Assembly (NCBI GenBank): GCA_021841585.1
Contig: JAKBUS010000013.1
Location: 1-47,304 of the forward strand
DNA: 47,304 nt
DNA from: Pseudomonadota bacterium
GTDB taxonomy: Bacteria > Pseudomonadota > Gammaproteobacteria > Acidiferrobacterales > Acidiferrobacteraceae
Direction: 5' to 3'
In this document: positions 18,678 to 35,327 of the stretch, one piece after another
How the letters are laid out: the number at the start of each line of letters is the position of its first letter
How positions within the stretch are numbered: position 1 is the first letter of the stretch
Notes under the pieces: model-generated
Databases searched by the model: none
What the model was told of the DNA's origin: nothing
Seen by the model: only the letters and a program-made list of their open reading frames with translations
Made by a program: the position numbers and the translations under genes

Positions 18678-19769
18678 GTGGCGGATGTCGTGTTCATTCT
18701 TGGGGCGGGGGCATCGCAGCAGGGCGGCGCGCCGGTCATGAGCAGCTTCCTGGACAAGGCGCGTCGGCTGTTGTTCACTGGCGCCGTGCAGGGCCACGCG
18801 GGGGATTTCGCCAAGGTCTTCGAGGCAATCGGCAAATTGCAGGCGGTGCATTCAAAGGCGCAAGACCTGGACATCACCAATGTCGAGAGCGTGTTCGCGG
18901 CCTTCGAGATGGCCCGGCTTATCGGCCGCATGCCGGGCTATGGCGTGGGCGATATCGATGCCTTGATTGCGGCCCTGAAGACCGTCATCGCCTATACCCT
19001 GGAGTCGACGCTCAATTTCAACGAGGAGCGCGCCGGGGAGCTGCCGGTGGCGCCCGAGCCCTATCCCCGCTTCGTGGAGTTGCTGCGCGAAAGCCAATCG
19101 GCATCGCCGCCCTATCGCCATGCCATCCTTACGTTCAATTACGATCTGGCCTTGGATTACGCCCTGCATCGGGGCGGGATCCCGGTGCGCTATTGCCTGG
19201 ATGACTCCGACCCGGTTTCCGGCATCCCGCTTCTGAAGCTGCACGGCTCGCTCAATTGGGTGGCGGGCGCGCGCGGGGAGGTCGTGCCGTGGCGGATGGA
19301 TCAGCTGTTGGCGGAGTCGGGCGGCGCGGTGTTTTGTCGCCAGACGGAGGGCGTGTTCCGGCTTTGCACCACTGCGCGTATTCTCGACCGCCCAGCAGGT
19401 GAGCATCCGGTAATCGTGCCGCCAACGTGGAATAAATACGGCTACCAAAGCCAGTTTACCCGCGTATGGGCGCAGGCCGCTCAGGAGTTGTCTGATGCTC
19501 AGCATATTTTCGTGATCGGCTACTCGCTGCCGGAGTCAGACTTGTTTTTCCGCTATCTCTACGCGCTGGGCTCGGTCGGGGATCATCCCTTGGAGATGTT
19601 TCGCGTGTACGACCCCGATGAGCGGGTTGGGCCGCGTTTCCAGAGCATGCTCGGGCCCGGCGCCCGCATCCGCTTCCGGCACGTGGCGACGAACTTCGAG
19701 CGCGCCATCGGTTTGGTGGAGGGCATCTTGAAGAAGCGCCAGAAATGGCCGGAGGCGGGCGCGCGATAG
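18678..19769 (+). CDS. SIR2-like NAD-binding protein
   Basis: A 363-residue protein with SIR2-family landmarks in order: FILGAGAS (6-13), TFNYD (152-156), LKLHGSLNW (187-195, H189) and FVIGYSLPESD near residue 276. The Asn and His correspond to catalytic residues of SIR2 NADases in defence systems such as Thoeris ThsA. It lacks the cysteine zinc ribbon of sirtuin deacetylases, so NAD hydrolysis or ADP-ribosyl transfer is more likely than deacetylation. The GTG at 18678 has GGGAGG six bases upstream. No obvious sensor or partner gene is adjacent; cbbR follows convergently. It may be a stand-alone defence or regulatory protein. Confidence 0.8.
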   Translation: MADVVFILGAGASQQGGAPVMSSFLDKARRLLFTGAVQGHAGDFAKVFEAIGKLQAVHSKAQDLDITNVESVFAAFEMARLIGRMPGYGVGDIDALIAALKTVIAYTLESTLNFNEERAGELPVAPEPYPRFVELLRESQSASPPYRHAILTFNYDLALDYALHRGGIPVRYCLDDSDPVSGIPLLKLHGSLNWVAGARGEVVPWRMDQLLAESGGAVFCRQTEGVFRLCTTARILDRPAGEHPVIVPPTWNKYGYQSQFTRVWAQAAQELSDAQHIFVIGYSLPESDLFFRYLYALGSVGDHPLEMFRVYDPDERVGPRFQSMLGPGARIRFRHVATNFERAIGLVEGILKKRQKWPEAGAR

Positions 19770-19805: not shown

Positions 19806-20792
19806 TCACCGGGCGCGTGTCTTTGCGGGTCGCTTTTGGAGGGTGCGCGGGCGCGCGCCGGGTTGGGGCTCCGCCACCCAGCCCTTGCGGATCCCGAGCC
19901 CCGGGCCTTCCTTGACCAGAAAGTCGAGGAACACGCTCGCCGTGAGGCCCAGGTGTTTGCCATGCAGGTGGACCGCGTACCAGGTCCTGTGCAGGGGGAA
20001 GCCCACGACATCGAGGATGACGAGGCGTCCGGCCTCCAGTTCCAGTTCCAGGCTGCTCAAAGCCAGCACCGAGATCCCGAGATCGGCCATGATCGCCTGC
20101 TTGATGGCCTCGCTCGACCCAAGCTCCATGTAGGGCTCCACAGTGAGTCCATGTTCCGCAAACATCTGTGCGGCTGACATACGTGTGCCGGAACCAGGCT
20201 CGCGCAGCAGGAAACGGGCGCGGACGATCTCCTCCAGGGGGATATTCGTCCGGCTGGCGAAGGGGTGGTCCGGGTGCGCCACCACCACCAGCAGATTATC
20301 CATGAACGGCCGGACCGCAAGGTCCATGTCGTTCGGGATCTGGCCCATGACGACAAAGTCGTCGACGTTGTCCGCCAGGCGTTCCAGCACCCGCGCGCGG
20401 TTCGTGACCGTAAGCTGAGGCGCTACGTCCGGGTATTCGTGCACGAAAAGCCCCAGAAAATGCGGCATGAAGAACTTCGCGGAGGTGACCACCGCCATCT
20501 TCAGGGGGCCCGCCACCTTGCCCTTCATGTCGGCGATCTCTCCTGTGAGCGCGCGCAGCTGGCCTATCACCGCGACCGTGGCCGCGTACACCTCCTCGCC
20601 GGCGCGTGTCAGCAGGAGCTTCTTGCCGACCCGCTCGATCAGCGGCAGGCCCACGATCTCCTCGAGCCTGCGCACCTGGATATGCACCGCGGGCTGTGTC
20701 AGGCACAGCTCCTCGGCGGCGCGCGTGTAGCTGCGATGGCGGGCGACCGCCTCGAAGAGTCGAAGTTGCTGGAGCGTCCAATGATTAATCAT
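19806..20792 (-). CDS. cbbR: LysR-type regulator CbbR
   Basis: A 328-residue LysR-family protein. The N-terminal winged helix reads LQQLRLFEAVARHRSYTRAAEELCLTQPAVHIQVRRLE, very CbbR-like, followed by the effector domain (KFFMPHFLGLFVHEYPDV, LVVVAHPDHP, LLREPGSGTR, EAIKQAIMADLGISVL). CbbR activates Calvin-cycle and carbon-uptake genes in response to metabolites. It is divergent from the aldolase-like gene, the usual LysR arrangement. It is the only LysR gene in the window and the likely binder of the TNA-N7/8-TNA boxes seen upstream of dabBA and the DabA paralogue. The last 25 residues are a basic tail. Confidence 0.88.
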   Translation of the reverse strand: MINHWTLQQLRLFEAVARHRSYTRAAEELCLTQPAVHIQVRRLEEIVGLPLIERVGKKLLLTRAGEEVYAATVAVIGQLRALTGEIADMKGKVAGPLKMAVVTSAKFFMPHFLGLFVHEYPDVAPQLTVTNRARVLERLADNVDDFVVMGQIPNDMDLAVRPFMDNLLVVVAHPDHPFASRTNIPLEEIVRARFLLREPGSGTRMSAAQMFAEHGLTVEPYMELGSSEAIKQAIMADLGISVLALSSLELELEAGRLVILDVVGFPLHRTWYAVHLHGKHLGLTASVFLDFLVKEGPGLGIRKGWVAEPQPGARPRTLQKRPAKTRAR

Positions 20793-20812
20793 TAACTAGA
20801 ATAAATGGCTGC
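20780..20812. promoter_or_regulatory. AT-rich cbbR/aldolase-like intergenic operator candidate
   Basis: TTA-N7-TAA occurs at 20791-20803 (TTAACTAGAATAA) next to the cbbR start, fitting the TNA-N7/8-TNA LysR pattern and the habit of LysR proteins to bind between themselves and a divergent target. The rest of the gap to 21046 has further AT-rich stretches but no clear -35/-10 pair. Confidence 0.35.
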
Positions 20813-21046
20813 ACTAATGAAGACTGATTTCTCTTTAGCCATATTACTCTCTAAATTCGATCATGCCCAACCGGATGACGGAAATTTGTGTCGACGGGCA
20901 AAGGATGTCCGCGGCCGGCCGGTCCCTGGCGGGCGTGGAAACAACATCGCCCCAGGGTTTGTCGGGGCGTCGCGGCCCATCGGGCGGCGACGCGCGCCAT
21001 CCCGGCGGCGGTCGCGCTCAGCACAACCGATCTGCGAGGGTTTGTT

Positions 21047-22249
21047 ATGCCGTTGGTCGACATGAAGGATATGCTCGCGCACGCTTACCAAAACGGTTAC
21101 GCGGTGGGCGCCTTTGACCTCACGGAGCCTGATTTCCTGCCGGCGGTGTTGGCGGCGGCGGAATCGGCGCGCGCTCCGGTCATCGTCCGTGTCGCCGAGT
21201 CCCGACCCCAAGGTTCGGTCTTTGCCTGGGTCATGGCGGCCGTGGAGGCCGCCGCGGCGCGCGCTACCGTACCCGTGGCGATCCAGTGCGATCAGGGGAC
21301 CGACGCCGATTCCGTCTTGCGCGGGATCGGCCTGGGGGCCAACGGGGTCGTGGCGAGCGCCCTTCAGGAGTCGCTTTTTCGTCATATCGATCGCACGCGC
21401 GCGATCGTGGATGTGGCGCACGCCTGCGGCGTGCCGGTCGAGGGTGAATTGGTGTATGTGTCCGATGGCGATGCCACGGAAGGCCGCGCATCGCGCCCCA
21501 TCGAGTATGCGACCGCAGCCGAGGCCAAGGGCTTCGTCGAACGTACCGGGGTGGATTTCCTGGCCGTCTCCATGGCGCTCGTGCGCGCGCGGGGAAAGTC
21601 GCGGTTCGACTGGGGGCGGCTTCGGGAGATCAATGCCGCGCTCAAGATACCGTTGGCCATACCGGGTGAGGCGGGGCTTTCCGATGAGCAATGTCACAGG
21701 CTCATCATGCTGGGCGCGGCCAAGATTTCCTGTTCCATGGCTCCGGACAGCCTAGCGGGCGAGCGGCTGCGGGCCACGGTACGGCGTGATCGTCATGCCC
21801 CCTACAGCGCCCTGAAGGAGGACCTGCATGAGATGATCGCGGCGCAGCTCGAGCCGCGCATGCGCGCGTGGGGCTCGGCGGGCCGCGCCGCGGAAGTGCT
21901 CGACCGTTGCCGCCCCTGGACCAACATCATGCATGTCATCGTTTACGATACGCCGCGCCTTGATGCCCCGGCGTTGCGGGCGTTGATGGCCGATGGGCAG
22001 CGGTTGCTGTCGGGCATCCCGGGGGTGCGTTCGGTCCAGGCCGGCAGCATCGCGGATGAGGGCAGCCGCTACCGCCACTGCCTGCTGACGCGCCTGGTGT
22101 CGGTGCCGGCGATCGACGCGTTTCGCAGGCACCCGGCCTATACCGGATTCATGGATCGGCGTCTCGCGCCGGTGGCCTCCGATCGCATCGAAGGCGATTA
22201 CCGCATGATCGATGCGTGCCGGGAGATCGCGCCCTTGGCGTTGCCGTAG
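21047..22249 (+). CDS. Class II aldolase-like pseudoenzyme fused to a C-terminal Dabb domain
   Basis: A 400-residue protein. Residues 1-270 follow the class II fructose-bisphosphate aldolase fold (MKDMLAHAYQNGYAVGAF, VIVRVAES, AHACGVPVEGELVYVSDGD, FVERTGVDFLAVSM, GAAKISCS). The zinc histidines are gone: the DHG motif is D82-Q83-G, the GTSHG histidine aligns with R180, and the LHGGSG histidine is P206. The asparagine-rich NVDT segment is replaced by SCSM. Residues about 290-400 (IMHVIVYDTPRLD...GVRSVQAGS...HPAYTGFMDRRLAP) resemble the Dabb stress-responsive dimeric alpha/beta-barrel domain (unrelated to the DabB protein). GAGGG precedes the ATG at 21047. It is unlikely to be an active zinc aldolase; a regulatory or new catalytic role in carbon metabolism is inferred from context. 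Confidence 0.75.
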   Translation: MPLVDMKDMLAHAYQNGYAVGAFDLTEPDFLPAVLAAAESARAPVIVRVAESRPQGSVFAWVMAAVEAAAARATVPVAIQCDQGTDADSVLRGIGLGANGVVASALQESLFRHIDRTRAIVDVAHACGVPVEGELVYVSDGDATEGRASRPIEYATAAEAKGFVERTGVDFLAVSMALVRARGKSRFDWGRLREINAALKIPLAIPGEAGLSDEQCHRLIMLGAAKISCSMAPDSLAGERLRATVRRDRHAPYSALKEDLHEMIAAQLEPRMRAWGSAGRAAEVLDRCRPWTNIMHVIVYDTPRLDAPALRALMADGQRLLSGIPGVRSVQAGSIADEGSRYRHCLLTRLVSVPAIDAFRRHPAYTGFMDRRLAPVASDRIEGDYRMIDACREIAPLALP

Positions 22250-22294
22250 GCACCGACCGCAGGTCGCGCGCCCCCGAACGGGAATTAACCGTAG

Positions 22295-22350
22295 TAAATC
22301 CTCATAATTTTTAATATCAAGTGTCTCTTATTCTTCCGGAGCTCTAATAT
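22295..22350 (+). promoter_or_regulatory. Putative CbbR-type operator and promoter of the DabA-like/DUF6671 genes
   Basis: TAAAT (22295-22299), 16 bases, ATCAAGT (22316-22322), with TCA-N8-TTA at 22317-22330 and a -10-like TAATAT at 22345-22350. The order and spacing match the dabB promoter. Compared without gaps with the minus strand of 18460-18498, about three quarters of 35 positions agree. It sits in the 256-base gap before the DabA-like gene. Confidence 0.5.
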
Positions 22351-22505
22351 CTCCCCCCATGGCCGCAATTGGGTAGTCGGGCCGGAGGACCCAAGTCCAT
22401 GACCAGGATCTCGCAAACAAGGGCAGGGCCGCGGTCTATGGATGCGCCAACATGCGCGCCGGGCGCGATCCTCGCACCGCGCAATCCCGACACGGAGGGG
22501 ACCCC

Positions 22506-24728
22506 ATGGATGGCCCCTTAGCGGCGTGCTGGACGGGGCGCGACGAGGGGTGCATGGCAGACCGCCCAAGGCCGGGCGGCGGCGCCGTGACGACCCGCGA
22601 GTGGCCGGCGTGGTGGGCCGCCGTGCGCGATGCCTGTGGCCGGCTTGCGCCCGCCTGGACCCTGGACGCGTCGGTTGCCGTCAACCCCTACTTCGGATTG
22701 CGTCACCTGGATTTCGAGGCCGCAGGTCTGACCCTGGCGCGGGTGGCTGGCTCCACGCTTGCCATGCCGCGCCGCTATTACCGGGAGCAGATCGCGAGCG
22801 GGCGCATCACGCGCGGTGATATCGCCGAGGCCTTGCGGGCGCACGGCCTGCCGTCCGACAAGGACTATGCGGCCTCGCTCTTGGCGCATGACGGCGCACC
22901 GCCCGTGCAGAGGCTGCCGCTCGTGTCGCATGTCTTGCAGCGCATCGACCCGGGTACGCCGTGGGCGGCCTTCTGCGTCGAGCGTATCAGCCAGTTCGCC
23001 GCCGCTTACTTCGACATAGGCCAGGCCTCATGGCCCTTGCCGTGGCGCGATGAACCCCTCTACGACGCGTGGCGTGGTTTCGCAAAACTCGATGCCAGTC
23101 CCCGCACGGTGGGGTTAAAGCGGGTGGCCGGCCTCGTCGAGGGGCTGCCGCGGGCGCCGCTTGCGTCCATCGCGGTCGTCCTGAAGGCCTTGGCCGTCCC
23201 CGAGGCCCATATCGTAGATTATTGTCACGCCGCGCTTCTCGATATCAGCGGGTGGGCTGCGCGCGTGCAGGATACGCGCCAGGGGTGCGGGGCCGATCGT
23301 GGTCACGCCGACATCGAGCAGCTGCTCGCCATCCGGCTGGCGTGGGAGTTCATCCTCTTTCGCGCCGTCCCGGGGCCGCGGCTGGAGTCCGCCTGGCGGA
23401 CGGCGCTGTCGTCGCTGCCGCCCGCACCCTCGATGCGCATGACCCCCGATGCCCAGGCAGACGCGGTCCTGCAGGCGGCGTTCGAGCTTGGGTACCGGCG
23501 GCGCATCGTCGCCGATCTCGCCGCGTGCGTGGAGACGCCTGTCCACAAGGCCCCGCAGGGCCGCGCCCCGCTCCAGGCGGTGTTTTGCGCGCACAACCGT
23601 GTGGAGGTCTTTCGCCGCGCCATGGAAACCGTCGCCCCCGCAGTACAGACCCTGGGATTCAGCGGATTTTGTGGGCTTGCCTTCGCCCGCGCCCCCTTCG
23701 ACCCGTTCATGGACGGCCCGCGATACGCGTGGCCGCCCTTGCCGCCATCGGCGTGCGCGGCCGATCGCGATGAGCTAAGCGATATCGCCGTCGACCAAGC
23801 CGCGACGGCCATCCTCCGGACCATGTCGCTCACAGACGGCTTCGCACGGCTGGTGTTACTGATCGATCACGGCGCGCCTTTCGCCCATAAGCCGCATGGC
23901 GCAACACCCGCTCGAGCGGGTGTTGCGCCCTGGGCCGGCGAGACCGACGCGCGCACGGCGGCGGCGTGGCTGAATGATCCAGCGCTACGCGCGCGGCTTG
24001 CGCGCAGCGGCCTTACGATTCCCGCGGATACGGGCTTTGTGGCGGCGCGTTACGACAGCGCGCGCGACGAGGTCGCCTTGTTCGATGCCACGTCATGGGA
24101 AGCGACGCACGCTCAGGATCTGCGGGATGCGCGCGCGATCCTGGAAGAGGCGGGCGCGCGCGCGCGTGAAGAGCGCGCCCAAGCCTCGGTCCCGCCGGTC
24201 GCCGCCGGCCTGGAATTTGCCGGCCATGCCGCCTTCATCGCGGCGCCGCGCGCGCGCACGAAAGGCGTCGTATTGGACGGCCGCGCGTTCCTCCATGACT
24301 ACGACTGGCGCCGGGATGAGGATTTCCGGGTCCTGCGGCACATCATGACCGCGCCGATGATGGCGGCGCACTGGATGAACATGCGCTACTACGCATCCAT
24401 GGTCGACAACAAGCGCTTCGGCGGTGGCAACAAGGCCCTGCACAATATGGTGGGCGGATGCGTCGGGGTGCTGGAAGGTGGGGGCGGCGACCTCAGAAAC
24501 GGCCTTCCAATCCAGTCGCTTTTTGATGGCGGCCATTGGGTCCATGAGCCGATGCGCCTGAATGTGTTCGTGGAGGCGCCGCGCGCCGGCATCGATGAGG
24601 TGCTTGCGCGTCACGAGATCGTGCGTGACGTGGTGGAGCATGGATGGCTGTTCTTGTTTCAGATGGACAGCGAGGCCAGCGGCCTGTTCCTGCGCGCCCG
24701 TGATGGGCGGTGGGAGCAGGTGTCATGA
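22506..24728 (+). CDS. DabA-like protein with altered zinc site
   Basis: A 740-residue DUF2309/UPF0753 protein that aligns with the DabA at 7250 over most of its length (VAVNPYFGLRHLDF, FGGGNKALHNMVGGCVGVLEG, GHWVHEPMRLNVFVEAP). Of the four zinc-site residues, C361 and H455 remain, but the Asp is H363 (FCAHNRVE instead of FCIDVRSE) and the second Cys is R470 (PARAG in place of LDCGA). Normal carbonic-anhydrase-like chemistry is therefore doubtful; a changed metal site or a regulatory role is possible. GGAGGGG at 22494-22500 supports the ATG at 22506. No dabB is adjacent; the coupled partner is DUF6671. A 32-bp palindrome lies in the altered segment. The long open frame and conserved ends argue against simple decay. 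Confidence 0.85.
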   Translation: MDGPLAACWTGRDEGCMADRPRPGGGAVTTREWPAWWAAVRDACGRLAPAWTLDASVAVNPYFGLRHLDFEAAGLTLARVAGSTLAMPRRYYREQIASGRITRGDIAEALRAHGLPSDKDYAASLLAHDGAPPVQRLPLVSHVLQRIDPGTPWAAFCVERISQFAAAYFDIGQASWPLPWRDEPLYDAWRGFAKLDASPRTVGLKRVAGLVEGLPRAPLASIAVVLKALAVPEAHIVDYCHAALLDISGWAARVQDTRQGCGADRGHADIEQLLAIRLAWEFILFRAVPGPRLESAWRTALSSLPPAPSMRMTPDAQADAVLQAAFELGYRRRIVADLAACVETPVHKAPQGRAPLQAVFCAHNRVEVFRRAMETVAPAVQTLGFSGFCGLAFARAPFDPFMDGPRYAWPPLPPSACAADRDELSDIAVDQAATAILRTMSLTDGFARLVLLIDHGAPFAHKPHGATPARAGVAPWAGETDARTAAAWLNDPALRARLARSGLTIPADTGFVAARYDSARDEVALFDATSWEATHAQDLRDARAILEEAGARAREERAQASVPPVAAGLEFAGHAAFIAAPRARTKGVVLDGRAFLHDYDWRRDEDFRVLRHIMTAPMMAAHWMNMRYYASMVDNKRFGGGNKALHNMVGGCVGVLEGGGGDLRNGLPIQSLFDGGHWVHEPMRLNVFVEAPRAGIDEVLARHEIVRDVVEHGWLFLFQMDSEASGLFLRARDGRWEQVS
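23898..23929. repeat. 32-bp perfect palindrome inside the DabA-like gene
   Basis: GGCGCAACACCCGCT and its reverse complement meet at a central CGAG-type core to give a perfect 32-base palindrome. It encodes residues 465-475 of the DabA-like protein, exactly where the fourth zinc ligand (Cys in DabA) should lie. Distances to the flanking conserved residues are the same as in the other DabA, so it replaces rather than lengthens the segment. In RNA it would form a very strong hairpin. Confidence 0.85.
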
Positions 24729-25609
24729 GCCTGGATGGGCATGTGGCGGCCCACGCCTCGCCGGCGCGCAGTCTCTATCGTGGGCGGCGTGCGGCGTTTT
24801 TGACCCAGCACGGCAAGGAGCGCATCGTGGCGCCGGTCCTTGAGGGCTTCGTGGGCTGTCTCGTCGAGCGCGTGGGCGGGTATGACACCGATCTCCTTGG
24901 GACATTCACGCGCGATATTCCGCGCGCCGGCACCCAGCTCGAGGCCGCCCGCCACAAGGCGCGCATCGGTATGGAGCTCTCGGGGCTGCCAGTCGGACTT
25001 GCCAGCGAAGGGTCCTTCACCCGTGATCCGTTCACGGGGATGTTTCCCTGGAATATCGAATTTTTGGTATTCCTGGACGACTTGTTGGGTCTTGAGGTGG
25101 TCGGCATGGCGCAGGGGCGGGCCAACAGCGCCCAGGTCTTAGCGGCGGGCTGGGAGGACGCCGAGCGGTTCGCGCACGCGGTCCGCTTTCCCGAGCATTA
25201 TTTGGTCCTAAGGCCCGACGGCGACGATGATCCCCGCATCCGCAAGGGGATCGCCGATTGGTCGGGACTCAAGACGGCCTATGAGGAGGCCGCCGCGCGC
25301 TCGTCGAGCGGGCGGGTGTTCGTGGAGGTGGATCTGCGCGCCTACGCCAATCCCACGCGCCTCATCAATATCCGACTCGCCGCGGTCGACCTCGGCCGGC
25401 GCCTGGCATCGTTGTGCCCCGTTTGCCGCACGCCCGGATTTTGGGTGGTGGAGGTGATCGCCGGGCTCCCCTGCCAGGCATGCGGGGCGCCGACGCGCGA
25501 GGCGCGCGCCGAGGTCCGTGGTTGCATGAAGTGCGGGCATCGGGTAACGCGTGATCGCGAGGATCTCGCGCAGGCGGACCCGGCCCGCTGCGATATCTGT
25601 AATCCCTAG
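24725..25609 (+). CDS. DUF6671-like protein with C-terminal cysteine pairs
   Basis: A 294-residue soluble protein. The N-terminal part (RSLYRGRRAAFLTQHGKERIVAPVL, RVGGYDTDLLGTFTRDIPRAGTQLEAARHKARIGMELSG, FTGMFPWNIEFLVFLDD) fits DUF6671 as I remember it. The C-terminus has four CxxC pairs (CPVC, CQAC, CMKC, CDIC), a double zinc ribbon. Its ATG (24725) overlaps the stop of the DabA-like gene (24726-24728), so the two are translationally coupled and probably act together. The biochemical role of DUF6671 is unknown to me. The conserved Arg, Thr and Glu residues in the N-terminal half could form an active or nucleotide-binding site. Confidence 0.75.
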   Translation: MSLDGHVAAHASPARSLYRGRRAAFLTQHGKERIVAPVLEGFVGCLVERVGGYDTDLLGTFTRDIPRAGTQLEAARHKARIGMELSGLPVGLASEGSFTRDPFTGMFPWNIEFLVFLDDLLGLEVVGMAQGRANSAQVLAAGWEDAERFAHAVRFPEHYLVLRPDGDDDPRIRKGIADWSGLKTAYEEAAARSSSGRVFVEVDLRAYANPTRLINIRLAAVDLGRRLASLCPVCRTPGFWVVEVIAGLPCQACGAPTREARAEVRGCMKCGHRVTRDREDLAQADPARCDICNP

Positions 25610-25678: not shown

Positions 25679-26779
25679 GTGAGCGACAACTTTGGCGATG
25701 GCGCGCGCCGATGCGCGCCGGACGCGGACGCAAAGGCCCAGGTGCCGGCAGCATCCCTTCGCCTCATCCGCCCCGACGATTGGCACGTTCATCTGCGCGA
25801 TGGGGCGATGCTGGCCACGGCGGTGGCGGATAGCGCGCGGCGTTTCGCGCGCGCCATCGTCATGCCCAATCTCGATCCCCCGGTGCGCACCGTAGATGAG
25901 GCCTTGGCCTATCGCGCGCGCATCCTGTCGGCATTGCCCGCGGGCGCGCGCTTTGAGCCCCTCATGACGCTGTATCTCACCGAGGAGACGCGGCCTGCGG
26001 AGATCGCACAAGCGCGCGCGACGGGCCTTGTGCACGCCGTCAAGTACTATCCGGCCGGCGCCACCACCCATGCCGCGCGCGGCGTGCGAGATCTTGCGCG
26101 CTGTTATCCGGTCTTGGCGGCCATGGAGCGCCATGATCTCCCCTTGCTCCTGCATGGCGAGGTCACGGACCCCTCGGTGGATGTCTTCGATCGCGAGGCC
26201 ATGTTCCTCGAGCGCCACTTGTCGCCGCTCATGCGCGCGTTCCCGGGCCTGCGCATGGTTTTGGAGCACATCACGACCCGCGCCGCGGTCGAATTCGTGA
26301 GCGCCGCCCCGCAAACGCTGGCTGCCACCGTGACCGCCCACCATCTGCTGCTCGATCGCAATGCGCTCTTCGCGGGGGGGCTACGGCCGCATCACTACTG
26401 TCTGCCCCTTCTAAAGCGCGCCCACCACCGCGCTGCGCTGGTCGGCGCGGCGACCGGCGGCAATCCGAAGTTTTTTCTCGGGACTGATAGCGCGCCACAT
26501 CCTCGGCACGCCAAGGAGTCGTCCTGCGGGTGCGCTGGGATCTATACCGCGCATGCCGCGCTTGAGCTCTATGCAGAGGTCTTCGAAAAGGCCCACGCGC
26601 TCGACCGCCTGGAGGGGTTCGCAAGCTGTTACGGCCCGGACTTCTACCGTCTGCCGCGCAATCAAGATCGTGTCACGCTCATCAAGGCTCCATGGCGTGT
26701 CCCGTCCACCATAACCGCTGGCACGGACGTGCTCGTGCCCTTGCGCGCCGGAGAGGACATCGCATGGCAGCTTAGCTGA
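25679..26779 (+). CDS. pyrC: Dihydroorotase
   Basis: A 366-residue class II (PyrC, homodimeric) dihydroorotase that interconverts carbamoyl-aspartate and dihydroorotate in pyrimidine synthesis. Metal and catalytic residues are all visible: H36 and H38 in [10 protein letters not shown], the carboxylated K122 in VKYYPAG, H159 in LLLHGE, H197 in LEHIT and D270 in GTDSAPH. The start is a GTG at 25679 preceded by GAGGGCG. An N-terminal extension of about 25 residues comes before the conserved start ([12 protein letters not shown]). It stands 69 bases after the DUF6671 gene on the same strand and may be read through from it. Confidence 0.95.
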
Positions 26780-26841
26780 TCCGCCACCGCGACGGCGTAG
26801 GCCGCGGTATTGATCTTGACCTTCATTCCCAGGAGAACCTC

Positions 26842-28521
26842 ATGTCCGACAATCACAAGAGCCGGGTAGTGACGACCGGCGTGGAGCGCGCCCCCAATCG
26901 CGCCCTGTTGCGCGCCACCGGCTTTAGTGACAAGGATTTCGCAAAGCCGATCGTGGGCGTGGCCAACTCTCATAGCACCATCACGCCCTGCAATATGGGC
27001 ATCGGGCCTCTTGCCGCGCGCGCCGAGGCGGCCCTGGCCGCCGCCGGGGCCATGCCGCAGGTGTTTGGCACCATCACCATCTCGGACGGTATTTCCATGG
27101 GCACCGAGGGCATGAAATACTCGCTGGTGTCGCGCGAGGTGATCGCCGACTCGATAGAGACCGTGTGCGCCGGCCAGAGCATGGATGGCGTGCTGGCCTT
27201 CGGCGGCTGCGACAAGAACATGCCGGGCGCCATGATCGCCATCGCGCGCCTCGATATCCCGGCGGTGTTCGTCTATGGGGGCACGATCAAGCCCGGCCAC
27301 CACGACGGACGCGATCTGACCATCGTGAGCGTGTTCGAGGCGGTCGGCGCGCGCATTGCCGGCGCCATTGATGACCGAGAGCTACACGAGATCGAGCGCA
27401 AGGCGTGCCCCGGCGCGGGCTCGTGTGGCGGCATGTACACCGCCAATACCATGGCGGCGTTGTTCGAGGCCATGGGCATGAGCCTGCCGTACTCCGCGAC
27501 TATGACCGCCGAGGACTCCGAAAAGGCCGATAGCACCGCGCGTTCGGCGGCGGTGCTAGTCGAGGCCATAAAAGCGCGGCGGCGGCCACGCGAGATCCTC
27601 ACGCGCCAGGCCTTCGAGAATGGGCTTGCGGTGCTCATGGCGCTGGGCGGCTCCACCAATGCCGTCATCCATATGCCGGCCATCGCGCACGCCGCTGGCG
27701 TGGCGCTGACCCTCGAGGACTTCGACGCCTTCAGCCGCCGCGTCCCGGTGCTGTGCGACCTGAAGCCGTCCGGCCGTTACGTCGCCACCGATCTGCATCG
27801 CGCCGGCGGGGTGCCGCAGGTGATGAAGATGCTGCTCGCACACGGCCTCTTGCATGGCGATGCGCTGACCGTCACCGGGCAGACGATTGCCGAGGTCCTG
27901 CGGGATGTGCCGGAGTGCCCGCCGGCCGATCAGGACGTGATCCGGCCGTGGGCGCGGCCGGTCTATGCGCATGGCCATCTCGCCATCCTTAGGGGCAATC
28001 TCGCCGAAGAGGGGGCGCTGGCCAAGACCAGCGGCGTCAAGGTCCCGAGGATTACCGGCCCGGCGCGCGTGTTCGATTCCGAGGAGGCCTGCATGGCCGC
28101 CATCCTGGAACGACGCATAGTAGCGGGTGATGTGGTCGTGATCCGCTACGAGGGCCCGCGCGGGGGGCCTGGGATGCGCGAAATGCTCTCGCCCACCGCC
28201 GCGCTCGTGGGCCAAGGGCTCGGTGACCTCGTGGGGCTCGTTACCGATGGGCGTTTCTCCGGCGGCACTTATGGTATGGTGGTAGGCCATGTGGCGCCGG
28301 AGGCCGCGGTCGGCGGCATGATCGCGCTGGTGGCCGATGGCGATACGGTGATCATCGATGCCGAGCGGCGCATCTTGCGGCTCGATGTGCCCGAGGAGGA
28401 GCTTGCGCGCCGCCGCGCCCTGTGGACGCCCCCCGCGCCGCGCTATACGCGCGGGACCTTGGCCAAATATGCGCGCCTCGTCTCGTCAGCGAGTCGTGGC
28501 GCGGTGACGGATGGAGCATGA
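26842..28521 (+). CDS. ilvD: Dihydroxy-acid dehydratase
   Basis: A 559-residue IlvD that dehydrates dihydroxy-isovalerate and its methylvalerate homologue in branched-chain amino acid synthesis. The Fe-S cysteines are C50 ([11 protein letters not shown]), C123 ([10 protein letters not shown]) and C195 ([14 protein letters not shown]). The C-terminal [33 protein letters not shown] block is intact. AGGAG precedes the ATG. The stop overlaps the bioA start (ATGA at 28518-28521). This is the first gene of a tight ilvD-bioA-bioD-sua5 run. Confidence 0.96.
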
Positions 28522-29891
28522 GCAGGACGGATCCGACCTTCGAGACGGGATCGCGGGCGTGTACCGCAGACAGCCGGCCGGCCGGGACGGGCGCCGAGGG
28601 TGGTGGCCCCGGGGGCCGTGACTGGGCGCGCGCCATGGCCTTCGATCACGCCCATCTTTGGCACCCGTACGCGCCCCTGGGCGCGCCGGTCTGGCCGGTG
28701 GTGGCGGCCGATGGCGTGCGCCTTACGCTCGCCGATGGCCGGCGGCTGATCGATGGCATGAGCTCGTGGTGGGCGGCGATCCATGGCTACAACCACCCGG
28801 TCTTGAATCAGGCCGTGAGCGCGCAGCTGGGGCGCATGGCGCATGTGATGTTCGGGGGGCTCACGCACGGCCCGGCGATCGATCTCGGGCAGCGGCTCGT
28901 GGATTTGACCCCGGCGCCCCTTGAAAAGGTCTTTCTGTGCGACTCGGGGTCGGTGGCCGTGGAGGTCGCCATCAAGATGGCGCTCCAGTATTGGCAGGGG
29001 CGCGGGCGACCGGGCAAGCACCGTCTGCTCACCGTGCGCGGCGGCTACCACGGCGATACCTTTGCCGCCATGTCGGTGTGTGATCCGGTCACCGGCATGC
29101 ACCGCCTGTTTACCGGGCTCGTCTTCAAACAGCTCTTCGCGCCGCGGCCCGCGTGCCGGTTCGATGACCCCTGGGAGCCGTCGGCCATCGCCGAATTCGC
29201 CGATTTGATCATGGCGCACGCAGACGAGTTGGCGGCGGTCATCCTGGAGCCCATCGCCCAAGGCGCCGGCGGGATGTGGTTTTATCACCCCCAATACCTG
29301 CGCGAGGTGCGGGCCTTGTGCGACGCCCACGGCGTGCTGCTCATCGCCGATGAGATCGCCACGGGCTTCGGCCGTACCGGCCGCTTACTGGCCTGCGACC
29401 ATGCGCGCGTGACGCCGGACATCCTGTGTCTCGGCAAGGCCCTGACCGGGGGCTACATGACCCTGGCCGCGACCCTGACGACCGCCGACATCGCCACCGT
29501 GATTGGGCACGGCGAGGCCGGCGCCCTCATGCATGGACCCACGTTCATGGCCAACCCCTTGGCGTGCGCGGCGGCGGTGGCCAGCATCGACCTTTTGACG
29601 AGTGGTGACTGGCAGGCCCGCGTCGATGGCATCGCCCGCCAGTTGGTTTGTGAGCTCGAGCCCTGCCGTGGGCTTGCCGCGGTCAGCGACGTCCGGGTGC
29701 TGGGTGCCATCGGGGTCGTGGAGACGCGCGCGGCCGTGGACGCGTCGGCGCTCACCGCGCGGTTCGTGGACGCCGGCGTGTGGGTGCGCCCGTTCGGCCG
29801 GCTCGTCTATGTGATGCCACCCTACGTCATGGATCCCGACGATCTGTCGGTGTTGACCGCGGCGATCACGCGCGTAGTGGCGGACCTCTGA
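28518..29891 (+). CDS. bioA: Adenosylmethionine-8-amino-7-oxononanoate aminotransferase
   Basis: A 457-residue PLP aminotransferase of biotin synthesis, using S-adenosylmethionine as amino donor to make 7,8-diaminopelargonate. [39 protein letters not shown], the [12 protein letters not shown] block (D278) and the PLP lysine K307 in [13 protein letters not shown] identify BioA. The first 35-40 residues, rich in Gly and Pro, are an unusual extension; the ATG at 28635 (M40, next to [11 protein letters not shown]) may be the true start. The overlap with the ilvD stop favours 28518. Confidence 0.94.
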
Positions 29892-29946
29892 GGCGCGCGC
29901 ATGGGGGTTGCCGGGGATCATGGAATATTGTGAAAGGGGGTGCGCG

Positions 29947-30657
29947 ATGCGCGGGGTGTTCATTACCGGGAGCGACACGGGTGTCGGCAAGACCGCAATC
30001 GGGGCCGCCTTGGCGTGGCGGCTGTCTCGCGAGGGGCTTGTGGTACGGCCGCGCAAACCCGTGGAGTCAGGCTGCGTCGACCGAGAGGGCGGCGCGCATT
30101 CCGGCGATCGCGAGACCTATCACGCGGCAGTCGACGGCCGGGAGCCGCTAGCGCGCATCGGCCATTACCGGTTTCGCGCGCCGCTCTCGCCGGAACGTGC
30201 CGCGGCCCTGGAGGGCCGCGCGTTGCGCTTGGATGAGCTCGTCGCGGCGTGCCGTGAAGGGGTCGACGCCCCGGACTTTCTGTTAGTGGAGGGCGCCGGC
30301 GGTTTCTATTCGCCGCTCACCGCCGACGCCCTGAATGCCGACCTGGCCGTGGCCCTTGGCCTTCCGGTGCTGGTCGTGAGCGCCGACCGGCTCGGCGCGA
30401 TCCATCAAACGCTGCTGACGGTCGAGGCGGTCATCGGTCGTGGCCTCGCGCTGGCCGGGGTCGTGTTGAACCAAACGGCCCCGGGCGCCGACCCGGGGAT
30501 GGATAATGGCGCCGATGTCGCCCGTTGGCTTGGGCGCGATCCGCTGGTCATCCGCCACCACGATGAGGCAAATGGCACCCCGGCGTGGCGCGCCATCGCC
30601 CCCTTTGTGACGAAGATTGCCGCCACGCTCGCCGCGGGGTCCGCGCATGAATGGTGA
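29947..30657 (+). CDS. bioD: Dethiobiotin synthetase
   Basis: A 236-residue P-loop enzyme that closes the ureido ring of biotin with CO2 and ATP. GSDTGVGKT is the P-loop, RPRKPVESG carries the conserved lysine, and VEGAGGFYSPL is the Mg/ATP-binding segment. The ATG at 29947 follows a GAAAGGGGG six bases upstream; the TTG-started frame from 29908 is longer but lacks support. The last 11 bases overlap the start of the sua5 gene. CO2 as substrate is worth noting in an organism with several CO2-capture genes, but the enzyme itself is ordinary. Confidence 0.94.
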   Translation: MRGVFITGSDTGVGKTAIGAALAWRLSREGLVVRPRKPVESGCVDREGGAHSGDRETYHAAVDGREPLARIGHYRFRAPLSPERAAALEGRALRLDELVAACREGVDAPDFLLVEGAGGFYSPLTADALNADLAVALGLPVLVVSADRLGAIHQTLLTVEAVIGRGLALAGVVLNQTAPGADPGMDNGADVARWLGRDPLVIRHHDEANGTPAWRAIAPFVTKIAATLAAGSAHEW

Positions 30658-31687
30658 TGGGTTTGGTGGCGGGCCTGGCGGGTGGCGGCAGGTCCCAGAA
30701 TCGGCTATCGCGCGCGCCGCCGAGATCCTCGGCCGCGGCGGGCTGGTGGCGTTTCCGACCGAGACCGTCTATGGCCTGGGCGCGGACGCGCACAACGCGG
30801 CGGCGGTGGCGGGCGTGTTCGCGGCCAAGGGGCGGCCGGCCGATCACCCCCTGATCGTTCATATCCATGATGCCGATCAGATGCGCCGCTACGCGCGCGA
30901 CATCCCACCGGTCGCCTGGCGGCTCGCCGAGCACTTTTGGCCGGGACCCCTGACGCTGATCCTGCCCCGCGGCCCCGGCGTGGCCGATGCCGTCACCGGC
31001 GGCCAGGACACGATCGGCCTGCGGGTCCCGGGGCATCCCGTGGCGCTGGCGCTGCTCAAGGCCTTCGGGCGCGGGGTGGCCGCGCCCTCGGCCAATCCCT
31101 TTGGCGGCGTGAGCCCGACCACGGCCGCGCATGTCGCCTTTGGTCTCGGGCAAGCGGTGGATGCGATCCTGGATGGCGGGGCCTGCGCGGTCGGCCTGGA
31201 GTCCACCATCCTCGACCTGAGCGGGCCCGTGCCGCGCCTGCTGCGCCCGGGCGCGGTAAGCCCCCGGGCGCTGGCCGCGATCATCGGCCGGACGCCCATG
31301 TTTGCCGCGTCCGGCGGCCCGCGCGCCCCCGGACGCCTCCCTTCTCATTACGCCCCCGCGACCCCCCTGCGGCTCGTCAGCGATCCAGACCGGGAGTGGC
31401 GCCACGGCCCCCGGCCGCTGGCGGTGATGGCCTTGCGTCCGCCGGCCTCTGGGACGGTGCGCTGCCGTTGGCTGGTGATGCCGCGCGCGGCCGGCGCCTA
31501 TGCCCATGCGCTCTACGCGCGCCTGCGCGCCATCGACCGCTGGGGTTGCCGTCTGGTCCTGGTCGAACGGCCACCCGCCACCGAGGCATGGGACGCGGTG
31601 CGCGACCGTCTGGAGCGCGCCGCCCGCGGCACCGCCGTCCCAGGGGCCGCGGGGCGCAAGGAGTCGGGGGCGGCGCGCCAGAAGTAG
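30647..31687 (+). CDS. L-threonylcarbamoyladenylate synthase, Sua5 type
   Basis: A 346-residue Sua5/YwlC-type enzyme that makes threonylcarbamoyl-AMP from threonine, bicarbonate and ATP for the t6A modification of ANN-decoding tRNAs. The YrdC-like catalytic domain (FPTETVYGLGADA, AAKGRPADHPLIVHI, FWPGPLTLIL, GLRVPGHP, APSANPFGGVSPT, GLESTILDL) is followed by the linker PSHYAPATPLRLV and the C-terminal Sua5 domain, so this is the long form. The ATG at 30647 overlaps the end of bioD. The C-terminal tail (GAAGRKESGAARQK) is basic. Confidence 0.93.
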   Translation: MNGDGFGGGPGGWRQVPESAIARAAEILGRGGLVAFPTETVYGLGADAHNAAAVAGVFAAKGRPADHPLIVHIHDADQMRRYARDIPPVAWRLAEHFWPGPLTLILPRGPGVADAVTGGQDTIGLRVPGHPVALALLKAFGRGVAAPSANPFGGVSPTTAAHVAFGLGQAVDAILDGGACAVGLESTILDLSGPVPRLLRPGAVSPRALAAIIGRTPMFAASGGPRAPGRLPSHYAPATPLRLVSDPDREWRHGPRPLAVMALRPPASGTVRCRWLVMPRAAGAYAHALYARLRAIDRWGCRLVLVERPPATEAWDAVRDRLERAARGTAVPGAAGRKESGAARQK

Positions 31688-31859
31688 CTTCCTTCTGTTC
31701 GCGCCGGGGCCTGGCGTATCGCCCATCCCGCCCGGTGCCGGTCCGTGAGGTGCCGTCCGCCCCGAAAATCGGTATCGTACGCGTGTCGCGTGGCCATGAC
31801 AGAGGTGCTGGGCGCGGCGCCCTTGCTACCGAAAGCCAGGGCTGTCTCGTGAGGAACCG

Positions 31860-34340
31860 ATGAAGACCCAAGACCGCAAGGCCCGTTCGCGCCCCAAGAG
31901 GCGCGCGCCACCGAAGATCTCCCATACCCACAAACCCGCCGACCTTACCCCGCTCGACTGGCAGCGCGCCCTGCGCCGGCAGTTCGGGCGCGAGCAGGCG
32001 TTTCACTGGGAGAACGTCGGGGACGAGGCGATATTCTCCGATTTTCAGGTAAGCAACCCGGCGAGCCGATCCCGCTACCGGGTGACGGTCCGCGGGCTGC
32101 AGCCGGGCGACAACCGCTGTTCCTGTCCCGATTTCGCTACCAACGAGCTCGGCACCTGCAAGCATATAGAATTCGTGCTCGCGAGGCTCCTCAAGAAGCG
32201 CGGCGCCAAGGCCGCCTTCGCGCATGGCTATCATCCGGTGTTTTCGGAGCTCGTTTTGCATAACGATGGCCACCGCTCCGTCCGGTTCCGGCCGGGAAGC
32301 GCATGCCCCGCCGCTGTGCGCAAGGCAGCGGCGGGCCTCTTTGCGCAGTCCGGGGGCAATTTGTGCCCCGATCGTTTCGATGATCTGGAGTCCTTCATGA
32401 AGGAGGCGACCCGGGCCGGCCACGAGCTGCGGGTTCCCGACGAGGTGCTGGATTTTGTCGCCGGGTGGCGCGACGCTGCGCACCGCGCCCGGACCCTGGA
32501 TCGGCTGTTCCCAAAGGGCGCCGCCGACTGGGGCCGCGCGCGGCTCACGAAGCTTGCCCTCTACCCCTATCAGGTCGAGGGCGCCTTGTTCGCGGCGCGC
32601 GCCGGGCGCGCCCTCATAGGCGATGAGATGGGGCTTGGCAAGACCGCGCAGGCGATCGCCGCCGCTGAGATCCTGGCGCGCTATTTCGGGGTGTCGCGCG
32701 TGCTCGTGGTCTGCCCGACGTCGCTCAAATATCAGTGGCAGGGCGAGTTTTTGCGTTTTGCCGGGCGTAAGGCGCGGGTGATCGCCGGAGGCCGCGCGCA
32801 ACGACAGAAGGAGTACACGTGTGACGATTTCTGCAAGATCACCAATTACGAAAAGCTCGATCCGGATCTCGATCTCATCAGCGGCTGGGCGCCGGAACTC
32901 GTCATAGTCGATGAGGCGCAGCGCATCAAGAACTGGAATACCATCGCGGCACGCGCCTTGAAACGCATCGACAGCCCCTATGCCGTCGTACTCACGGGGA
33001 CGCCGCTCGAGAACAAGCTGGAGGAGCTCGTCTCTATCGTGCAATATGTCGATCAGCACAGGCTCGGGCCGACCTGGAGACTTCTGCATGAGCACCAGGT
33101 GCGCGACGAGGCCGGGCGCGTCATCGGTTACGCCGGTCTCGACACCATCGGCAAGACGCTCGCGCCGATCATGATCCGGCGGCGCAAGGCCGAGGTTCTG
33201 CGCCAGCTGCCGGAACGGACCGACAGCACCATCCTCGTCCCCATGACCGAGGCGCAGATGCGCTATCACGAGGACAACGCCGATATTGTCGCGCGCATCG
33301 TCCAGCGCTGGCGCAAGACGCGCTTTCTGTCGGATACGGATCAAAGGCGCCTGACCTGCGCCCTGCAGAACATGCGCATGGCATGCAACAGCACCTATCT
33401 GCTCGATCAGGACAGCGACCATGGCGTGAAGGCCGACGAAGTGGCGGCGCTGGTGGATGACCTTGCGGCGCAAGACGCCAAGGCCGTCATCTTCTCGCAG
33501 TGGACGCGCAGCCATGACATCGTCATCCGCAGGCTCAAGGCCCGCGGCCTGGGTTATGTGAGCTTTCATGGCGGAGTGCCCTCGGAAAAGCGCCCGGCGC
33601 TCGTGCAGCGGTTTCGCGACGATGCGGATTGCCGGGTCTTTCTGTCCACGGATGCCGGCAGCACCGGCCTCAATCTGCAGCATGCCACCACGCTCATCAA
33701 CATGGATCTGCCCTGGAACCCGGCGATTCTGGAGCAGCGTATCGCGCGCATTCACCGCATGGGGCAGAAGCGTCCGGTGCGCATCGTGAATCTCGTGGCC
33801 AAGGGGACCATAGAGGAGGGCATGCTGGGGGTGCTCGCTTTCAAGCGTTCGCTCTCGGCCGGTATTCTGGACGGAGGGGCGGGCGAGGTATCGCTGGGCG
33901 GCTCGCGCCTCAACCGTTTCATGAAGGACGTGGAGAACGTGACCGGGCGCATGGGGGAGGCCGCGGAAGTGGCGCCCGCCGAGGAACGCGCCTTCGAGTC
34001 CGTGGCGGCGAAGGCGGGTGCGGGATCGCGCGGGGAGGGTGCCGCCGGTGATGGCGGGCCTGCGTCGGCGGTCCCGGGGGAGGGGCGTGACCGGTCCTCG
34101 CCTGCCACGGCGCATGTCCCGAATGATCCCTGGGCAGCCCTCGCGGGCCTTGGCCGTCAGCTGCTCGGCGCCTTTACGGCCACTCACGATGATGGCGCCG
34201 CCCATCCGTGGGTTGAGCGCGACGCGGCGAGCGGCCGATCCTCGCTCAAGATCCCGCTGCCGCCACCGGATGTGGCCCGTGAACTGGTTGCCGCGCTGGC
34301 GCGGTTCATGGACGCGTTCCAGGGCCACGATTCCTCGTGA
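31860..34340 (+). CDS. SWIM zinc-finger SNF2-family helicase
   Basis: An 826-residue SF2 DNA translocase. The SWIM finger CSCPDFATNELGTCKH (C87, C89, C100, H102) is followed by the SNF2 core: DEMGLGKT Walker A near residue 255, VDEAQRIKN Walker B, LTGTPLENKLEEL, and the helicase C-terminal motifs VIFSQWTRSHD, FHGGVPSEKR, STDAGSTGLNLQ and RIARIHRMGQKRPV. The C-terminal 150 residues are a low-complexity Ala/Gly/Glu region. It probably remodels protein-DNA complexes in repair or transcription. GAGGAA precedes the ATG. The 172-base gap after sua5 suggests a separate unit. Confidence 0.92.
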   Translation: MKTQDRKARSRPKRRAPPKISHTHKPADLTPLDWQRALRRQFGREQAFHWENVGDEAIFSDFQVSNPASRSRYRVTVRGLQPGDNRCSCPDFATNELGTCKHIEFVLARLLKKRGAKAAFAHGYHPVFSELVLHNDGHRSVRFRPGSACPAAVRKAAAGLFAQSGGNLCPDRFDDLESFMKEATRAGHELRVPDEVLDFVAGWRDAAHRARTLDRLFPKGAADWGRARLTKLALYPYQVEGALFAARAGRALIGDEMGLGKTAQAIAAAEILARYFGVSRVLVVCPTSLKYQWQGEFLRFAGRKARVIAGGRAQRQKEYTCDDFCKITNYEKLDPDLDLISGWAPELVIVDEAQRIKNWNTIAARALKRIDSPYAVVLTGTPLENKLEELVSIVQYVDQHRLGPTWRLLHEHQVRDEAGRVIGYAGLDTIGKTLAPIMIRRRKAEVLRQLPERTDSTILVPMTEAQMRYHEDNADIVARIVQRWRKTRFLSDTDQRRLTCALQNMRMACNSTYLLDQDSDHGVKADEVAALVDDLAAQDAKAVIFSQWTRSHDIVIRRLKARGLGYVSFHGGVPSEKRPALVQRFRDDADCRVFLSTDAGSTGLNLQHATTLINMDLPWNPAILEQRIARIHRMGQKRPVRIVNLVAKGTIEEGMLGVLAFKRSLSAGILDGGAGEVSLGGSRLNRFMKDVENVTGRMGEAAEVAPAEERAFESVAAKAGAGSRGEGAAGDGGPASAVPGEGRDRSSPATAHVPNDPWAALAGLGRQLLGAFTATHDDGAAHPWVERDAASGRSSLKIPLPPPDVARELVAALARFMDAFQGHDSS

Positions 34341-34835
34341 CAGCCGGTAGCCGACGGCGCGCCGTCCGAGCCTGTGGGGGGATCGGGGCATCGCGCCGGT
34401 CCACGCTAAAGCACCAAGGCGGTGGCAGGCCGGCGCGCGGGATCGAGGGTTGAACGCAAGACGCGTGCTGCCAGGAGACCTCATGATTGGCGGGGAGGTG
34501 TGCGCACGGGGCGGGTCGTGCAATGAGACATCTCGAATGCGTGCTGGCATGATATGCGCACCTATCCATCACGCACCATGAGCCGGTGCTGCGAGAGGCC
34601 TGCGTACAGGACCGCGTGGGCCCCGATTTCCCCCTTTACCGCCCCTTTGCGGCCGTGATGAGCCTGTTACTGCGGCGCCGGTGCGCGGATTCGATGCGAG
34701 GTTGTCGAGGTGGAAGCCGTCCGATGGCCGAGGCGCGAGGGACAGGAGGCGCTGGTTGTGACACAATGCCCGCACTTTGCGACATCCGGCCACGCTGAAG
34801 AGGTTTATGGGCTGGAACCGACGTTGGGAGGTCTG
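34341..34835. other. Intergenic stretch before purE, no gene seen
   Basis: About 500 bases without a supportable gene. Open frames here lack family motifs; the frame that precedes purE (from 34710) is best read as untranslated leader because a good ribosome-binding site sits directly before the internal ATG at 34836. No tRNA-like cloverleaf or strong promoter stood out by eye. Confidence 0.5.
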
Positions 34836-35327
34836 ATGGCGGCACTTGTCGGCATCATCATGGGGTCGCGTTCCGATTGGGACACGATGCGGCATGGCGC
34901 GCAGACACTGAGCGATCTCGGCATTGCCCATGAGGTCCAGGTCGTCTCGGCGCATCGTACCCCCGATCTGCTCTTCACTTATGCCGCGCAGGCCGAGGGT
35001 CGCGGGCTGCGCGCGATCATCGCCGGCGCTGGTGGCGCCGCCCATCTCCCCGGCATGGTGGCCGCCAAGACCACGCTTCCGGTCTTGGGTGTGCCCGTGC
35101 AGTCCCAGGCCCTGAACGGGCTCGATTCGCTGTTGTCCATCGTCCAGATGCCGGCCGGCGTGCCGGTCGCCACCTTTGCCATCGGCAAGGCCGGGGCGAT
35201 CAATGCCGCATTGTTCGCGGGCGCGCTGCTTGCCGGATACGATAGCGCGATCCGCGAGGCGCTCGCGGCCTTCCGGGTCCGGCAGACCGAAGCCGTTCTA
35301 GCCCATGGAGATCCGCGCGTCCCATGA
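34836..35327 (+). CDS. purE: N5-carboxyaminoimidazole ribonucleotide mutase
   Basis: A 163-residue PurE, class I, converting N5-CAIR to CAIR in purine synthesis. The N-terminus reads [16 protein letters not shown], followed by VVSAHRTPD and [19 protein letters not shown], the substrate-binding loops with the catalytic His. GGGAGG (34826-34831) supports the ATG at 34836. The stop overlaps the purK start by four bases. Confidence 0.96.

Follow-up and report, generated by a model that had tools for sequence, protein, structure and literature searches.

Gene Content of the Locus

The window, by which we mean the whole 47,304-nt stretch of DNA analyzed here, corresponds to contig C9 of a genome of 2.57 Mb. 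This genome, from an acid-loving bacterium, groups with Acidiferrobacter, and one of its close relatives carries the label Acidiferrobacter sp. Three open genes on the same strand encode an aldolase-Dabb fusion, a DabA-like protein and a DUF6671 protein, and lie divergently to a LysR-type regulator gene (Table 1). All three products score above the cut-offs of their Pfam families. The DabA-like and DUF6671 genes are joined by an ATGA stop-start overlap. This arrangement is as described in the initial annotation, which had also reported that dabB is missing from the module and that a complete canonical dabBA pair lies 13 kb away. Both statements hold. A Pfam search of the locus detected no dabB between the LysR gene and pyrC, and none adjoins the DabA-like gene. 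The two canonical genes are complete, and canonical DabA has all ligands and the membrane finger when aligned with the DabA structure 9rd0. An Rfam search of the window returned no RNA element.

Table 1. Positions of the module features and of the canonical dabBA genes in the window.
Feature	Position	Strand	Remarks
Canonical dabB	5595–7253	+	Pfam Proton_antipo_M/N; context outside the module
Canonical dabA, catalytically complete	7250–9754	+	PF10070 full length; context outside the module
LysR-type regulator, CbbR-like	19806–20792	-	Pfam HTH_1 and LysR_substrate; divergent from the module
Conserved AT-rich LysR–aldolase intergenic block	20788–20873		Operator-like site TTAACTAGAATAAA at 20792–20805
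Aldolase-Dabb fusion	21047–22249	+	Pfam F_bP_aldolase, Dabb; class II aldolase fold without zinc ligands
Second conserved block, upstream of the DabA-like gene	22280–22350		Operator-like site TTAACCGTAGTAAA at 22285–22298
DabA-like protein, putative pseudoenzyme	about 22554–24728	+	PF10070; alternative starts 22506 or 22587
ATGA stop-start overlap, DabA-like/DUF6671	24725–24728	+
DUF6671 protein	24725–25609	+	PF20376; predicted HAM1/ITPase-like fold, ATP-grasp-lid-like insert, C-terminal eight-Cys zinc ribbon
pyrC-like amidohydrolase	25718–26779	+	Pfam Amidohydro_1; next gene of the conserved dabA-DUF6671-pyrC-ilvD block

The genes downstream of the module (25718–36418) include the CO2- or bicarbonate-related bioD, tsaC/sua5, purE and purK, with pyrC, ilvD and bioA interspersed. 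Upstream, a single protein (12183–13691) combines a lipoate-ligase-like domain with a DUF116 domain, and a SIR2-like protein (18678–19769; Pfam SIR2_2, weak PADLOC SIR2 matches) is encoded convergently with the LysR gene and kept beside it in the genus. Elsewhere in the same genome (G000:C81:1-20000; loci L146 and L093) there is apparently an alpha-carboxysome operon with RuBisCO and carboxysome-like shell genes, followed by genes for a CbbO-like protein, DabB, a large DabA, a small PII-like protein and a CbbQ-like protein, an apparent second DAB system; RuBisCO and DabA of this region were confirmed by profile and the other genes were read from the sequence.

Residues Lost From the DabA-like Protein and the Aldolase

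The DabA-like protein is recognized by PF10070 over nearly its full length (E 9e-170), and its best fold match is the beta-carbonic anhydrase CsoSCA (9g4t; probability 0.99, E 0.009). As reference for the residue comparison we used DabA2 of Halothiobacillus neapolitanus DAB2 (PDB 9rd0). According to the 2026 cryo-EM study of DAB2, the zinc ligands of DabA are Cys351, His524 and Cys539, Asp353 and Arg355 form a dyad and are not zinc ligands, and a membrane finger with Glu444 completes the proton path with DabB (PMC13144422). In the window protein Cys351, Arg355 and His524 are kept, Asp353 is replaced by His, Cys539 is lost, and DabA2 residues 384–484, which hold the finger and Glu444, have no counterpart. 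The initial annotation had described two of four zinc ligands as changed. The Asp and the second Cys are indeed altered, but the count becomes one ligand of three (Cys539) plus the dyad residue Asp353; the loss of the finger had been missed.

Across the eight species with a DabA-like protein, Cys351 is found in all, His524 in seven, Arg355 in six, and Asp353 and Cys539 in none. The protein resembles DabA of the DAB/DAC CO2-uptake complex in its family and in its three-domain plan minus the finger, and differs from it in the missing Cys539, Asp353 and Glu444 finger, in having no adjoining dabB and in its coupling to DUF6671. With Cys539, Asp353 and the finger missing, it is not expected to work as a zinc enzyme or to dock on DabB in the manner known for DabA. 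The retention of Cys351 and His524 would suit a soluble CO2/bicarbonate sensor or enzyme that uses substituted ligands, for instance His at position 353, to bind metal or CO2. We consider such a protein very improbable: His occupies this position in only three of the eight species (otherwise Ser, Gly or Asn), no residue consistently takes the place of Cys539, the loop is shortened or modelled with poor confidence, and alanine changes at these sites impair DabA2 (PMC13144422).

The aldolase-Dabb fusion was described from the outset as zinc-less, and this is confirmed for the window protein, in which the three zinc His positions are occupied by Gln, Arg and Pro. The whole class II fructose-bisphosphate aldolase domain is recognized (Pfam F_bP_aldolase, PF01116, E 5e-43); the differences from that enzyme are the absence of all three zinc His and the added C-terminal Dabb domain (E 2.5e-5). 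Which of the zinc ligands survive differs among the species. In Candidatus Gallionella acididurans and a relative (L040:3828-4985, L041:886-2046) an aldolase-Dabb fusion directly follows dabA and keeps two of the three zinc His, apparently an earlier stage of the ligand loss seen in the window.

Origin of the DabA-like Gene

In a maximum-likelihood tree the DabA-like proteins form a single clade, sister to the dabA products of L031 and of Acidithiobacillus sulfuriphilus (L035), with support 99/96. Forcing them together with the canonical DabA of the genus was rejected (p-AU 0.0012), and with it a recent duplication of the nearby canonical dabA; grouping them with the Gallionella-type DabA was rejected as well (p-AU 0.0002). 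Both L031 and L035 have the gene order dabB-dabA-DUF6671-pyrC, and the block order dabA-DUF6671-pyrC-ilvD is common to L031, L035, L026 and the genus, the Acidiferrobacter DabA-like gene taking the exact dabA slot before DUF6671-pyrC-ilvD. As tree placement and gene order agree, it is well supported that the DabA-like gene descends as an orphan from the dabA of an old dabB-dabA-DUF6671-pyrC block, having lost dabB, the finger and the zinc site and kept its coupling to DUF6671. The exact sister group is less sure than the separation from the canonical copies, because the DabA-like branch is long (0.77).

Conservation Within the Genus

We examined 14 genomes of the genus, some of them incomplete. 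The full set of LysR, aldolase-Dabb, DabA-like and DUF6671 genes was found in eight; in the initial annotation, absence from relatives was to have spoken against a functional set. An intact DabA-like gene was not found in the remaining six. One of these (G012) has the LysR gene, the aldolase, the second conserved block and DUF6671, with only a trace of the DabA-like gene. Of the set, two (G003 and G005) retain LysR and DUF6671 alone, and another (G007) has DUF6671 and an aldolase stub, the DabA-like gene being deleted. No DUF6671 match was found in G002 and G011, both about 85% complete. With no intact copy in six of the 14 genomes, and a mere remnant in one, the DabA-like protein is not indispensable. 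Since DUF6671 persists where the DabA-like gene is a remnant or gone, the core of the module is probably DUF6671, as a carbon-uptake partner under a dedicated LysR regulator, and not, as first proposed, a set of catalytically altered parts.

Where the DabA-like gene is present, its frame of 700–744 codons is open in all eight species despite up to 40% amino-acid divergence, and gene coordinates place the ATGA overlap in seven of the eight. Pairwise dN/dS (NG86) was 0.23–0.35 for the DabA-like gene and 0.20–0.32 for the aldolase, compared with 0.09–0.21 for DUF6671 and 0.08–0.13 for canonical DabA and DabB. By these ratios the DabA-like gene is under purifying selection, though relaxed, its values being two to three times those of canonical DabA; free decay is not favored. 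The earlier view of the set as maintained and not decaying is borne out by the conservation of the set in eight species, the open frames, ratios far below 1 and an operator-like site common to both transcription units, but not by the species of the genus in which the DabA-like gene is only a remnant or absent. Conservation has also shifted along the protein. The catalytic domain after the finger scores 0.89 in canonical DabA vs 0.58 in the DabA-like protein, of which it is the least conserved part; the best-conserved parts are the second beta-CA domain (0.75) and the N-terminal domain (0.72). This is the pattern expected if catalysis was lost and binding surfaces were kept, and slow relaxation would fit it as well.

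The module might accordingly be a slowly fading relic in which DUF6671 is the sole working gene and the DabA-like protein and the aldolase have been drifting away since the canonical dabBA took over. The elevated dN/dS of the DabA-like gene points in this direction, as do the active-site residues that vary freely among species in both proteins and the remnant, deletion and absences listed above, all with DUF6671 retained. Long frames that stay open over such divergence, the conserved ATGA coupling and promoter block, and the uneven, domain-specific conservation of the DabA-like protein argue against it, and we regard a relic of this kind as unlikely.

The canonical dabBA genes are themselves at odds with the species relationships. 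In G004 and G006 the canonical DabA and DabB are practically identical and DUF6671 is 11% different; in G003 and G005 canonical DabA is 94–96% identical to that of the window (7250–9754), and DUF6671 68%. Horizontal transfer or mis-binning could account for this mismatch.

A Predicted LysR Regulon

The regulator had been annotated as cbbR. The gene does encode a CbbR-like LysR protein, for which the NCBIfam CbbR equivalog NF045990 is the best-matching named model, but at 229 bits it does not reach the cut-off of 450; as the model is narrow, this shortfall by itself does not decide the matter. A different LysR gene lies beside RuBisCO on contig C75 of the same genome, and the two paralogues are 41% identical. 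These results lend no support to the module LysR as the classical CbbR of RuBisCO. It is like CbbR in its best model and in its divergent position beside a carbon-related unit; it differs in scoring below the cut-off, in not being the LysR beside RuBisCO and in a likely operator pattern that the examined RuBisCO and canonical dabBA regions lack.

Two stretches of non-coding DNA at the module are conserved. The first, of about 80 bp, stands out in a nine-species alignment in which the remaining intergenic DNA diverges. The second, of about 70 bp, is conserved in six relatives with diverging flanks, and is kept even in G012, which has no intact DabA-like gene. LysR/CbbR sites have the form TNA-N7-TNA. 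Both blocks contain TTAACNNNNRTAAA, which is compatible with this form. Across the 2.57 Mb genome there are exactly two occurrences of the TTAACNNNNRTAAA pattern, both at the module, and none of the reversed control pattern; the TTAACNNNNRTAAA pattern was not found in the RuBisCO or canonical dabBA regions examined. A related sequence lies directly upstream of DUF6671 in G003 and G005, the two genomes that keep only LysR and DUF6671. As the pattern is confined to these two conserved blocks, the sites likely define a private LysR regulon. In this regulon LysR would bind the two shared operator-like sites and switch on both units under carbon limitation.

DUF6671 in Other Bacteria

The DUF6671 protein matches PF20376 with E 5e-39 and 134.7 bits (curated cut-off 23.8). 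We took 60 DUF6671 loci from the genome collection, of which 47, biased to near relatives, were left after removal of the genus and of near-copies. In 25 of these, dabA (seven loci) or sbtA (18 loci) lies within 3 kb of DUF6671, and some of the other loci are cut by contig ends. The identities of SbtA, PII-like, CbbQ, biotin carboxylase, TsaC/Sua5 and DabA were verified by Pfam on representatives.

Against the bias to near relatives we drew two even genome samples, one of the class and one of the phylum (proteobacteria). The class sample of 369 genomes has DabA in 83 and DUF6671 in 14, and 11 of these 14, two Acidiferrobacter genomes included, also have DabA (Fisher p 9e-6). As only about 13% of the DabA-bearing genomes in this sample carry DUF6671, it is an accessory. 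Leaving out the genus, the class sample has ten complete DUF6671 loci: dabA is the direct neighbor in six, and sbtA, together with a small PII-like gene, is the neighbor in one. An eleventh locus (G189), with a decayed DUF6671 copy, is also beside dabA. Five of the seven phylum-sample loci adjoin dabBA or sbtA; one of them has a fused dabBA, and in another, from a distantly related bacterium of the phylum (L162), an intact dabA overlaps DUF6671 by 4 bases, as the DabA-like gene does in the window. Over both even samples, dabA or sbtA is only a few genes away from DUF6671 in 12 of 17 loci, and tsaC is close by in six of 17. DUF6671 is accompanied by dabBA, sbtA and LysR genes in proteobacteria that are only distantly related.

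In the genomes searched, all four genes occur together in a single genus. The initial annotation had suggested a search for DUF6671 behind a ligand-less DabA gene; the combination recurs in the genus but only there, and elsewhere DUF6671 sits behind a catalytically complete dabA or beside sbtA. We found no paper on DUF6671 or PF20376 in the open-access literature, and two publications on carbon-uptake gene sets, in the terms searched, make no mention of a partner of this type. DUF6671 is probably an uncharacterized conserved partner or regulator of inorganic-carbon uptake through DabBA and SbtA.

TsaC, PurK and biotin carboxylase use bicarbonate, and BioD uses CO2. Families encoded downstream of the module in the window recur by DUF6671 elsewhere, with purEK in L028 and L040, biotin carboxylase in L115 and bioD in L042 and L043.

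Predicted Fold of DUF6671

An AlphaFold2 model of DUF6671 (pLDDT 92.5) resembles the HAM1/RdgB/YjjX nucleotide pyrophosphatases over residues 20–230 (Z 11–12.6), the best HAM1 match being 1vp2 (Z 12.6 over 136 residues, rmsd 3.4). An insert at residues 135–205 matches ATP-grasp lids, including those of biotin carboxylase and carbamoyl-phosphate synthetase (Z 8.6–10.2, about 68 residues). In an alignment of 50 sequences H29, K31, D54, D56, K78 and E95 are invariant, as are seven Cys at the C-terminus; an eighth Cys there is nearly so. Profile alignment with HAM1 is weak (hhalign E 0.013, probability 3%), with K31 and K78 falling on conserved lysines. In Pfam the protein matched only PF20376, and neither Ham1p_like nor a related family. 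DUF6671 shares with the HAM1/RdgB, YjjX and Maf pyrophosphatases the modelled fold of residues 20–230, by comparison with HAM1 and YjjX structures, and aligned conserved Lys residues, and is set apart from them by the insert, the zinc ribbon and the missing Ham1p_like match. From the modelled fold, nucleotide binding may reasonably be inferred.

The top Foldseek match of DUF6671 came from the KomBC complex, which with the nearby SIR2-like gene raised a phage-defence reading. It was rejected because PADLOC matches neither the three module proteins nor the LysR, and because the HAM1 fold alone accounts for the KomBC match.

DUF6671 might act on the demand side, as a nucleotide pyrophosphatase or an ATP- and bicarbonate-dependent enzyme induced at carbon scarcity, and not as a regulator of the transporters. 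Its HAM1-like fold with an insert resembling the lids of biotin carboxylase and carbamoyl-phosphate synthetase, its invariant H29, K31, D54, D56, K78 and E95 and neighbors that include TsaC, PurK, biotin carboxylase and BioD are in keeping with such an enzyme. The lid match, however, concerns a small and common subdomain, and the most frequent neighbors of DUF6671 are transporters and LysR genes and do not form a single pathway. We rate an enzyme of this type as quite unlikely.

Discussion

Taken together, the anatomy of the module, the origin of the DabA-like gene and the association of DUF6671 with carbon uptake are well supported, and the reading of the gene set as a sensing module is plausible. 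Our best available guess, somewhat short of probable, is nucleotide-responsive control of carbon uptake by DUF6671 with the pseudo-DabA as a soluble partner. DUF6671 would bind a nucleotide via its HAM1-like domain and lid-like insert, and would match the uptake or supply of carbon to the energy state, in a way comparable to the action of SbtB on SbtA. The DabA that lacks the finger would remain cytosolic and bind DUF6671 via the conserved surfaces of its N-terminal and second beta-CA-like domains, acting as an adaptor or decoy and not as an enzyme.

The comparison with SbtA-SbtB draws on the fact that DUF6671 often adjoins sbtA, sometimes with a PII-like gene, and on its prediction as a nucleotide-binding partner of a carbon transporter. 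It differs from SbtB in its unrelated fold (HAM1-like, whereas SbtB is PII-like) and in also accompanying DabBA. In a more far-reaching form, which we consider doubtful, DUF6671 would be a widespread nucleotide-sensing regulator or subunit common to the mechanistically unrelated PMF-driven DabBA and sodium-driven SbtA, and a worn-out DabA of Acidiferrobacter would serve it as a non-catalytic, soluble adaptor switched by a private LysR.

The control of DAB and Sbt carbon uptake is poorly known outside the cyanobacteria. If one uncharacterized family accompanies both systems, it would directly become a candidate for a control or support factor common to the two, and the pseudo-DabA would offer a natural separation of the binding surfaces of DabA from catalysis and membrane docking.
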